In this document: piece by piece, positions 14,524-18,305 of the stretch
How the letters are laid out: each line of letters starts with the position of its first letter
Numbering within the stretch: the first letter of the stretch is position 1
Assembly (NCBI GenBank): GCA_031296115.1
Contig: JARLGI010000115.1
Span: 1 to 60,929 of the forward strand
Source of the DNA: Acidobacteriota bacterium
GTDB lineage: Bacteria; Acidobacteriota; Terriglobia; Terriglobales; Acidobacteriaceae
Reading direction: 5' to 3'
Length of the DNA stretch: 60,929 bases
Position numbers and translations under genes: made by a program
Notes under the pieces: generated by a model
Databases searched by the model: none
Told to the model about the DNA's origin: nothing
Seen by the model: the letters and a program-made list of their open reading frames with translations, nothing else

Positions 14524-15666
14524 TCAATCCTTCAGAATCTGCCGCGCGATGACCAGACGCTGGATCTCGCTGGTCCCTTCGCCGATGGTGCACAGCTTCA
14601 CGTCGCGATAGAACTTTTCCGCCGGATAATCCTTGATAAAGCCGTAGCCGCCGTGAATCTGCACGCCTTCGTTGGCGCACCTTACCGCGACCTCGCTCGA
14701 ATACAGCTTTGCCATCGAGGATTCAAGCGTGGTCTTCATGCCCGCGTCTTTCATGGCTGCGGCGCGGTAGGTCAGGAGGCGCGCGGCATCAATCTCGGTC
14801 GCCAGGTCCGCCAGCTTGAATGCGATGGCCTGAAACTCGCTGATGGGCTGGCCAAACTGCTCGCGTTCCTTGGAGTACTTCAGCGCCGCCTCGTACGCGC
14901 CCTGCGCCATTCCCAAGCCGAGCGCCGCTATGGAGATGCGGCCGCCGTCGAGGATCTTCATCGCGTCAATGAAACCGTCGCCTTCTTTGCCCAGCAAATT
15001 CTCTGCGGGAATCTCGCAGTCCTCGAAGATCAACTCGGAGGTATCGCTGGCGCGGAGGCCCAGCTTGTTCTCTTTCTTGCCGGCGCGAAACCCCTTAGTG
15101 CCCTTCTCAACGACGAACGCAGACAGACCATGAGTGTGCGCCGTCTTGTCGGTAACGGCGATCACCACCGCGACATCGGCGTAGTGACCGTTGGTGATGA
15201 ATGTCTTGGTACCGTTCAGCACCCAGCACTTCCCTCGGCGCACCGCCGAACAGCGCGCCCCGCCAGCGTCGGAGCCCGATCCCGGCTCAGTCAGCCCCCA
15301 TGCGCCGAGGAACTCGCCTATAGCAAGCTTCGGAATGTATTTGCGCTTCTGCTCTTCGTTTCCCGCCACGAAGATGTGATTGGAACACAAGGAAATGTGC
15401 GCAGCTACGGTAATGCCGACCGACCCGTCCACCCGTGAAAGCTCCTCGATCGAGCTCACGAACTCGACGTAGCCCATGCCCGCGCCGCCGTGCTCCGTCG
15501 GAAATATGGTGCCCAGCAGTCCGAGTTTGCCCAGCTCCTTGATGGTCGCCAGCGGAAATTCCCCGGGCTCGTCCCACTTCATCACGTTGGGCGCAATTTC
15601 ACGCTCGGCGAAGTCGCGCACCATCTTCTTCAGTTGCAGTTGTTCATCCGAGAGCTGGAAATCCAA
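14524..15666 (-). CDS. Acyl-CoA dehydrogenase, short-chain type
   Basis: A 380-residue FAD enzyme of the classical acyl-CoA dehydrogenase length. Signatures are [15 protein letters not shown] (FAD contact), [12 protein letters not shown] and the catalytic-base segment [13 protein letters not shown] with the base at Glu363. The length and motifs fit short-chain, butyryl or branched-chain (isovaleryl/isobutyryl) enzymes. The following genes for methylmalonyl-CoA handling make branched-chain amino-acid or odd-chain degradation plausible, as an inference. The gap to meaB is 281 bp. Confidence 0.93.
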
Positions 15667-15966: not shown

Positions 15967-16209
15967 TCACTGCCGCTGCGCCTCAATGAGGACGAGAAGT
16001 TCGGCCGCAGTTGGCTTCGTGCCGCTTTCCTTGTGAGAAAACACCCGCTTACCGTTTACCAGAATCTCGAGTTCGCCCATGGCGTGTTTCACGCGGGGAC
16101 GAATCCCGTACTTGGACTGCAATTCGCGCTTCAGGCTCCCGGCCGCGCGTCGCAGGTCGCCTCAAACCAAGCAGCGGCGAATTTCCACGTCCATCGTTTG
16201 GTCCATCAT
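15967..16209 (-). CDS. Candidate SelW/Rdx-family selenoprotein, UGA-encoded CxxU
   Basis: Reading from the ATG at 16209 gives 80 codons with one in-frame TGA at 16162-16164 and a normal TGA stop at 15967. The start is well supported by AAGAAGGA six bases upstream and lies 12 bp after the aldo/keto reductase stop. The product matches the Rdx (SelW/SelT-like) thioredoxin-fold family: strand MDVEIRRC, then C13-L-V-U16 at the redox position, a helix (GSLKRELQSKYG), and the family C-terminal half GELEILVNGKRVFSHKESG. The TGA sits exactly where the family has the second Cys or Sec of its CxxC/CxxU motif. A hairpin follows it (see the next entry). A gene caller that stops at TGA would miss the gene or start it at the internal Met near 16083. 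No sel genes are in the window, so decoding is inferred. The alternative is a nonsense mutation of a CxxC gene. Confidence 0.82.
16117..16164 (-). promoter_or_regulatory. Candidate bacterial SECIS hairpin downstream of the UGA
   Basis: On the minus strand, just after the UGA (16162-16164), the RNA can fold into three stacked stems. The lowest is CTGC (16155-16152) with GCAG (16120-16117), the middle is CGCGC (16149-16145) with GCGCG (16129-16125), and the top is GGC (16144-16142) with GCC (16136-16134), closing a CGGGA loop. The apical loop begins 21 nt after the UGA and has a G in its first two positions. This agrees with the general bacterial SECIS layout that recruits SelB. It was judged by eye and no folding energy was computed. 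Confidence 0.65.
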
Positions 16210-16221
16210 GGTTTTTCCTTC

Positions 16222-17190
16222 TTATGTCCAGTAATAGTTTCGCACCCAGCGATGCCGCCGCAACCTCGCCAGCACTTGCGGGGGCAGCGGGCCGGCATCG
16301 GACGCCGCTGTATTGGCCGCCACATGCCTGGTGTTTCGCATACCCGGTATGACGGTAGAGACGGCAGGATGCGACAGGCAGAAGCGCAGCGCAATCTCCG
16401 GCAGTTGCTCGATGCTGATGCCCAGGTCGCGCACGATGGCCTGCACATGCCCCCAAACTTCTTTCTTGCGCTCGCCCGCGAAGTAGATGTTGCGGAAGTC
16501 GCCCTCCGGGAACTGCGTGTCGGGCCCGATCTTGCCGGTCAGGCTGCCTTCGTCAAAGGGGACCCGCACAATCACGCCGATGCCGTTTTTCTGGCAGTGG
16601 GGAAAGAGTTGGTCTTCCGGCGACTGATCGAAGGTGTTGTAGATGACCTGTACGGATTCAATCAGTCCGCTGTCCAGCGCCTTCAGTACGTTGGCCGGCT
16701 GGTGGTTCTGGATGGAGATGCCGACGAACCTGACCTTGCCGGACGACTTCATCTCGCGGACCGTCTCTTGCCATTCGGGATCGCCGGCCCAGTCGTCAAT
16801 CCAGGTGTGGAACTGGTAGACGTCAATGCTGTCGCGATTGAGATTTTTCAGACTCTGATCGAGACAGTCCAGCACGTATTTCTTGGGGAAGGTATTTCCC
16901 AGCGGAGCGCCCGGCCCTACAGACCACTTGCGGTCTTTTGGCGGCACCTTGCTGGCGATGACGATGTCTTTTGCGTCGGCAAAGCACTGGGCAATTAACC
17001 GCTCGCTGTGTCCCTCGCCGTAAGCCAGCGCAGAGTCGAAGAAGTTGACGCCGGCGCCACGCGCAACGCGCAACGATCGCAGCGACTCTTCATCCTCGGC
17101 CCCTACCCACAGGGCCTTGCCGATGCCCCAGGCGCCGTAGCCTACCTCGCTCACCTGCAATCCGGTTTTGCCAAATGGCCGATACCGCAT
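16222..17190 (-). CDS. Aldo/keto reductase
   Basis: A 322-residue TIM-barrel NADPH-dependent oxidoreductase. It opens with MRYRPFGKTGLQVSEVGYG, the usual first strand. The catalytic tetrad positions are visible: Asp and Tyr in FFDSALAYGEGHSE, Lys in IVIASKVPP and His in YQFHTWID. I start it at the ATG at 17190, preceded by AAGGAAGG; upstream codons in the same frame are poor. The substrate is unknown. The SelW-like gene follows after 12 bp, so the two are probably co-transcribed and may share a redox context. Confidence 0.92.
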   Translation of the reverse strand: MRYRPFGKTGLQVSEVGYGAWGIGKALWVGAEDEESLRSLRVARGAGVNFFDSALAYGEGHSERLIAQCFADAKDIVIASKVPPKDRKWSVGPGAPLGNTFPKKYVLDCLDQSLKNLNRDSIDVYQFHTWIDDWAGDPEWQETVREMKSSGKVRFVGISIQNHQPANVLKALDSGLIESVQVIYNTFDQSPEDQLFPHCQKNGIGVIVRVPFDEGSLTGKIGPDTQFPEGDFRNIYFAGERKKEVWGHVQAIVRDLGISIEQLPEIALRFCLSHPAVSTVIPGMRNTRHVAANTAASDAGPLPPQVLARLRRHRWVRNYYWT

Positions 17191-17201
17191 AAATGCCTTC
17201 C

Positions 17202-18305
17202 TTAGACTGTCGCGCGCTGGGCTTTCACTCCGCAGATGGCTGCTACCACCTCGATGGCCTGCGCGCACTGCTCACGGCTCACGTCGAGGTGCGTCACGAA
17301 TCGGATGTGTTCGGCTCCCACGCCGTTGGCCAGCACCTTGCGTTCGGCGAGTCTGCGTGAGATTTCGCCGGAATTCATGCCCGTGCCCGCGGTGTCGCAC
17401 ATCAGAATGTTGGTCTGCACCTTGGCAGGATCAATCTTGATGCCGGAAATCTGCGCCAGGGCCTCGGCGAGGAACCGTGCATTGGCATGGTCCTGATTTA
17501 GCTTTTGTGGACCCTGCTCCAGTGCAATCAGACCGGCGGCAGCAAGAATCCCAGCCTGTCTCATGCCGCCACCGAGGGCCTTGCGGTAAAGGCGGCCACG
17601 GTCCATCAACTCGGCACTGCCTACCAGCAGCGACCCCGCCGGCGCGCCGAGCCCCTTGGAGAGACAGAACATCACGGTGTCGGCCTTCGCGGTCAGTTCA
17701 GCCACCAGAATGCCCAGCGCGACGGACACGTTAAAGATACGCGCGCCATCGAGGTGAACCGGCAGCCCGGCGGCGTGGGCGTTGTCGCAGATCTCGGCGA
17801 AGACCTCCGGCGGCGTAATCGTGCCGCCCGCGAGGTTGTGCGTGTTCTCCAGCGATACCAGCCCGGTCTTCGCCGCGTGGTAACTCTTGCTCTTCAGCTT
17901 CGACTTAAGGTGTTGCCAGGTCAGGATGCCGTCCTCCGCCCAGACCGTCCGCGGGAGTACACCTGAGAAGTGCGCCATCATGGCCATCTCGTAGTTGAAG
18001 ACGTGGCCGCGTTCTTCGCAGATGACTTCCTGCCCGTGTTGCGTGTGCAGCTTGATGGCAATCTGGTTCCCCATGGTCCCACTGGGAACAAACAGGGCCG
18101 CCTCACGGCCAAAAATCTCGGCCGCCCGCTTCTCCAAACGATTGATGGTTGGGTCCTCGCCGTACACGTCGTCGCCGACCTCGGCCTCGAACATAGCACG
18201 CCGCATCTCGGGCGATGGCTTGGTGACGGTGTCACTGCGCAGATCAATGACACCGGCCGTGGCAGAACGCTGTTCGATTTCCGATTGCGGAACGGAGGTG
18301 TACAT
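17202..18305 (-). CDS. ltaE: Low-specificity L-threonine aldolase
   Basis: A 367-residue PLP enzyme of fold type I that cleaves threonine or allo-threonine to glycine and acetaldehyde. It contains DLRSDTVTKPS near the start, VGDDVYGEDPTINRLE, and the PLP-binding lysine in FCLSKGLGAPAGS. Length is about normal, with a 19-residue N-terminal extension before the conserved domain. It lies 11 bp upstream of the aldo/keto reductase, which suggests an operon. Confidence 0.92.
   Translation of the reverse strand: MYTSVPQSEIEQRSATAGVIDLRSDTVTKPSPEMRRAMFEAEVGDDVYGEDPTINRLEKRAAEIFGREAALFVPSGTMGNQIAIKLHTQHGQEVICEERGHVFNYEMAMMAHFSGVLPRTVWAEDGILTWQHLKSKLKSKSYHAAKTGLVSLENTHNLAGGTITPPEVFAEICDNAHAAGLPVHLDGARIFNVSVALGILVAELTAKADTVMFCLSKGLGAPAGSLLVGSAELMDRGRLYRKALGGGMRQAGILAAAGLIALEQGPQKLNQDHANARFLAEALAQISGIKIDPAKVQTNILMCDTAGTGMNSGEISRRLAERKVLANGVGAEHIRFVTHLDVSREQCAQAIEVVAAICGVKAQRATV

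Follow-up and report, generated by a model that had tools for sequence, protein, structure and literature searches.

Does the TGA codon that interrupts a short minus-strand reading frame in the 60,929-nucleotide stretch of Acidobacteriota DNA analysed here (the window) disable a gene, or is it read as selenocysteine (Sec) in a small redox protein? The frame runs from position 16209 to 15967 and has 80 codons followed by a terminal TGA stop (15969–15967), and its single internal TGA (16164–16162, residue 16) takes the place of the second redox residue in a C-L-V-U motif, as an earlier reading of the window from its letters alone (the sequence-only reading) had stated. Read through, the product is MMDQTMDVEIRRCLVUGDLRRAAGSLKRELQSKYGIRPRVKHAMGELEILVNGKRVFSHKESGTKPTAAELLVLIEAQRQ. 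The Shine-Dalgarno sequence that the same reading had called strong is present as AAGGA (16216–16220, minus strand), 6 nt 5′ of the first ATG, but we grade it as moderate. An ATG lies 30 nt 5′ of the UGA in 18 of the 26 other Sec-type places described below, which makes the ATG that opens MDVEIRRC an alternative candidate for the start of the window gene.

We consider it very probable that this is a selW-like gene (Rdx family, thioredoxin-like fold) at 15967–16209 of the minus strand whose UGA at 16162–16164 encodes Sec in a CxxU motif. The proposed Rdx/SelW-like identity is borne out by a nearly full-length match of the product to the Pfam Rdx profile (PF10262) at 27.4 bits, over the cut-off of 22.6, whereas an equally near full-length match to the NCBIfam model TIGR02174 (SelT/SelW/SelH) reaches 30.7 bits and stays under its cut-off of 34.2. 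The product is thus below the threshold of the family model used by NCBI, and the description of the gene as hidden was fair in this respect; ordinary gene callers would shorten it. A six-frame Pfam Rdx search of its own genome (125 contigs totalling 3.75 Mb, completeness 93.6%) gave no match at E ≤ 0.001 and so missed the window gene, and a PDB sequence search with the product found nothing significant (best E 0.71). PMC4607533 describes SelW genes that annotation had overlooked altogether.

An AlphaFold model made from the window protein and eight relatives (pLDDT 87, pTM 0.72) has the order strand, helix, three strands, short helix and long helix, with the CxxU motif (residues 9–12 in the numbering of the model) where strand 4–9 ends, ahead of helix 13–30. 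A structure search with this model gave 22 PDB matches at E ≤ 0.001, SelW-related proteins and mouse SelW among them. The best, from Pseudomonas, Vibrio and Agrobacterium, are SelW-related proteins (2obk, 2p0g and 2fa8; query TM 0.77–0.84), and mouse SelW (2npb) matches with a TM of 0.64; these four are 22–28% identical to the window product, and none of them was found by the PDB sequence search. The window product is therefore predicted to have the thioredoxin-like SelW fold.

Is the genome able to make selenoproteins? The sequence-only reading had asked for selA, selB, selD and tRNA-Sec, and all four were found: tRNA-Sec on contig C88 (67.1 bits against a gathering score of 47, and called SeC with anticodon TCA by ARAGORN), and SelB on C17 (383.8 bits), SelA on C63 (565.1 bits) and SelD on C14 (365.7 bits), each over its curated cut-off. 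The selD match (L018:1441–2430) itself contains one in-frame TGA near its N-terminus (...MVKAAGUASKLSP...), and because of this internal TGA the SelD of this genome is probably a selenoprotein as well. Among 300 genomes of the same family, SelA is over its cut-off in 151; it is found in 24 of the 26 genomes that carry the Sec gene and in 127 of the 274 others (Fisher p = 2.6 × 10−6, uncorrected for kinship), and the two Sec-gene genomes that gave no SelA match (G120 and G185) have SelB over its cut-off.

A search of these 300 genomes with the window product gave 30 matching places in 29 genomes. TGA occupies the Sec codon within a CxxU motif in 27 of the 30 places, which lie in 26 genomes (including the window's) and 17 genera; the exceptions are a Pro codon, a Glu codon and a weak hit (L050) that we discounted as probably due to chance, and Cys occurs at the UGA column in none of the 30. 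In one genome (G108) there are two Sec-type copies, L037 and L051, which differ in subtype. The same codon in so many places, together with the Pfam score, agrees with the earlier argument that a TGA at precisely the redox residue is not a chance event. Across the 27 TGA-column sequences (alignment A1 omits L039, L047, L049 and L050), the redox Cys codon and the strand upstream of it keep the same phase as the downstream part and are conserved along with it. Degeneration 3′ of the UGA, which the sequence-only reading had named as evidence against its proposal, was not found in the comparison with L023: over the 60 codons past the UGA the window gene and L023 differ with pS 0.76 and pN 0.35. 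The corresponding values for L023 against L029, an orthologue that lacks Sec, are 0.76 and 0.23. Since synonymous sites are saturated, these values show only that selection on the coding sequence past the UGA, that of L029 included, is strongly purifying.

These observations bear directly on the possibility that the TGA is a recent nonsense mutation that turned a gene for a Cys-type Rdx protein into a pseudogene. The gene is present in only one of nine genomes of its genus (it was not found in the eight others, which are 71–100% complete), and its hairpin (below) is among the two shortest of the set; against this stand the TGA at the same codon in 17 genera, the lack of any Cys form among the 30 family places, the conservation of both halves of the protein in the alignment and the purifying selection on the downstream half. 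We judge a pseudogene to be highly improbable.

If the UGA is read as Sec, an RNA signal is expected in its neighbourhood, and epsilonproteobacterial selenoprotein genes are reported in PMC4607533 to share an apical hairpin of 5 or 6 bp a few nt 3′ of the TGA. In the window, a probable bacterial SECIS (bSECIS) hairpin lies at 16126–16148 of the minus strand and has the form GCGC-GGC, loop CGGGA, GCC-(UGAA bulge)-GCGC, as read from the family pairing and from a fold of 54 nt. Its apical loop is 20 nt after the UGA, and it has three contiguous pairs, with more beyond the 4-nt bulge, which makes it one of the two shortest among 27. The 54-nt fold displays this hairpin, the 44- and 61-nt folds prefer another structure, and the folding energy of the window copy is ordinary (z 0.03 and −0.07).

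The pairing was read from a gapless alignment of the 27 Sec sequences anchored at the UGA. The GGC/GCC pairs (21:31, 22:30 and 23:29), counting a few variant pairs, can form in 24 of the 27, with the loop starting 20–21 nt past the UGA; in L027, L030 and L033 they cannot form in the UGA-anchored register. Pair 19:33 is C-G in 12 sequences, G-C in 5 and unformed in 10; pair 20:32 is A-U in 13 and G-U in another 5, with no pairing in the other 9; and pair 24:28 forms in only 7. Constraint on the RNA is also seen at synonymous sites: when codons for the same amino acid are compared (25 of the 27 sequences, the near-copies L039 and L051 being excluded), identity at codons +5 to +10 exceeds the expectation from codon usage by 0.20–0.53, with 0.78 observed against 0.25 expected at column +9. 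Columns −4 and −1 (each 0.17), +1 (0.26) and +16 (0.25) also have an excess, and others have little or none.

Hairpins were then counted in all 27 sequences, with a G required in the first two loop bases, and compared with 300 synonymous shuffles. Of the 27, 20 have a hairpin with 5 or more pairs (shuffles 11.6 ± 2.3, maximum 18); the thresholds of at least 4 pairs (25 of 27; shuffles 19.5 ± 2.1, maximum 26) and at least 6 pairs (11 of 27; 4.7 ± 1.8, maximum 12) are weaker tests. Folding energy gives a weak signal across the set, with a mean z of −0.50 and 6 of 27 sequences at p ≤ 0.05 for codons +3 to +16, and a mean z of −0.98 and 4 of 27 for codons +1 to +14 (0, 3, 1 and 0 of 27 at four control offsets). 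Folding-energy z-scores, for the window copy or for the set, thus discriminate poorly, and synonymous conservation and the count of hairpins with at least 5 pairs do so better. The excess synonymous conservation at +5 to +10 and the excess of hairpins over shuffles point to a bacterial SECIS. A bSECIS hairpin past the UGA is probable, being supported for the family, though weak in the window copy by itself.

Could the UGA be translated as some other amino acid, by a suppressor or by near-cognate Trp or Cys insertion? The complete Sec machinery of the genome, the bSECIS-like constraint on the RNA, the placement of the UGA at the redox site of proteins whose family is known to include Sec forms, and the co-occurrence of the gene with SelA all speak for Sec, and we give this alternative almost no weight.

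A different alternative is that the UGA stops translation and that the conserved downstream part starts internally as a redox-free protein. Some encouragement for it comes from L029 (L029:1501–1725, genome G023), in which T-P-L-F-P replaces R-C-x-x-U, so that both redox residues are missing and the Sec position is a CCC (Pro) codon in an otherwise well conserved gene. The in-phase conservation of the Cys codon and the upstream strand in the 27 TGA-column sequences speaks against an internal start, and we regard it as barely credible. L029 lies upstream of the same acyl-CoA dehydrogenase gene as the window gene (below), and L023, from the same genus, keeps Sec. A second Sec-less orthologue (L049:1501–1671, genome G038) has C-F-W-E, with Glu for Sec, on a long tree branch, and is followed by the same dehydrogenase. 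SelA and SelB are still present in both host genomes, and the two orthologues allow one to ask whether the protein does anything beyond what its redox pair provides.

Beyond the family, 396 genomes from across the phylum were scanned, and 111 had a match. All 28 loci of other families that were read, which are among the best-scoring matches of that scan, have UGA at the Sec codon. Their motif differs from that of the window clade: 27 of the 28 carry YCxxU[NDSG]Y, and the remaining locus, L069, shares the RCxxU type of the window gene. In the window clade the signature is mostly [KR]RCxxU, with D/E next and then an R-rich helix. In a tree of 57 rows (L050 excluded; few columns for so many rows, with L025 and L028 not firmly placed), the 27 YCxxU[NDSG]Y loci form one group on a long branch with support of 100/99, apart from the sequences of the window's family. 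Judged by signature and tree, the window gene is a member of a divergent Acidobacteriota clade of putative SelW-like selenoproteins.

Bacterial SelW-like proteins with CxxU have long been known, and the window gene adds a member in this divergent clade. As described in Zhang et al. 2006 (PMC1794560) and PMC2398784, they resemble the window product in being Rdx-type proteins with Sec at the second position of CxxU and few Cys homologues. By 2006, very few or no Cys homologues had been reported in Sec-utilizing organisms (PMC1794560), and the 2008 ocean survey (GOS) lists 427 SelW-like Sec sequences and 56 Cys homologues (PMC2398784). SelW is absent from the main text of a 2025 predictor paper (PMC12013277). 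The present analysis adds a well-supported selenoprotein gene and its clade to an abundant soil phylum.

How might the product work? SelB, tRNA-Sec and the hairpin just past the UGA would help the ribosome to insert Sec as the second redox residue of CxxU; by analogy with the family, the Cys-Sec pair would then form a reversible selenenylsulfide, and the protein may be a small thiol/selenol oxidoreductase or a redox sensor, with protein thiols or low-molecular thiols as its targets. To our knowledge, the cellular function of the SelW family is unsettled, and the genes beside the Sec gene offer a lead on its physiological role.

Downstream of the window gene lies an acyl-CoA dehydrogenase gene with a TTG start (14524–15666, minus strand), which is recognized by its Pfam domains and reaches no NCBIfam cut-off. 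Of the 26 other Sec loci, 16 are followed on the same strand by a close homologue, which makes 17 of 27 with the window, at 81–87% identity (76% over the 33 residues available at L030). Counted by genus the linkage holds in 15 of 17, with g55 and g51 as exceptions; these counts cover flanks of at most about 1.5 kb (1007 nt downstream at L025). The gap between the two genes ranges from 25 to 1387 nt and is 300 nt in the window and 25–34 nt in three relatives. This recurrent neighbour, which also follows both Sec-less orthologues, suggests a link to acyl-CoA metabolism. A literature search that combined SelW-like proteins, acyl-CoA dehydrogenase and selenocysteine, and that covered few subscription journals, found no report of the linkage; it is possibly new, and may be reported in journals of that kind. 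One could go further and propose that the [KR]RCxxU clade forms a separate Rdx subfamily, in which the Cys-Sec pair is a redox partner or switch dedicated to the adjacent dehydrogenase or to that enzyme's acyl-CoA or electron-transfer chemistry; we think this unlikely at present, and if it were true, L029, which is conserved beside the dehydrogenase without its redox residues, would keep a binding role.

The gene on the other side, an aldo/keto reductase (16222–17268, minus strand) that ends 12 nt upstream of the window gene, is not a conserved neighbour: no close copy lies beside the searched relatives, which have one distant match of 28% (L040 and its duplicate L060), and we rejected it as a partner. 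The dehydrogenase is found at E ≤ 1e−180 in six of the eight other genomes of the window's genus; in all six of these sister loci (L062–L067) the DNA 5′ of the dehydrogenase is unlike that of the window, and the Sec gene and the aldo/keto reductase are absent there. A consensus scan between the selW-like gene and the dehydrogenase found neither a promoter nor a terminator. A simple selW-dehydrogenase operon is doubtful in the window, given the 300-nt gap and a TATAAT-like stretch before the dehydrogenase (TATAATCGCCTGTTT), to which three of the six sister loci have a similar counterpart (TATAACCGCCTGTTT).
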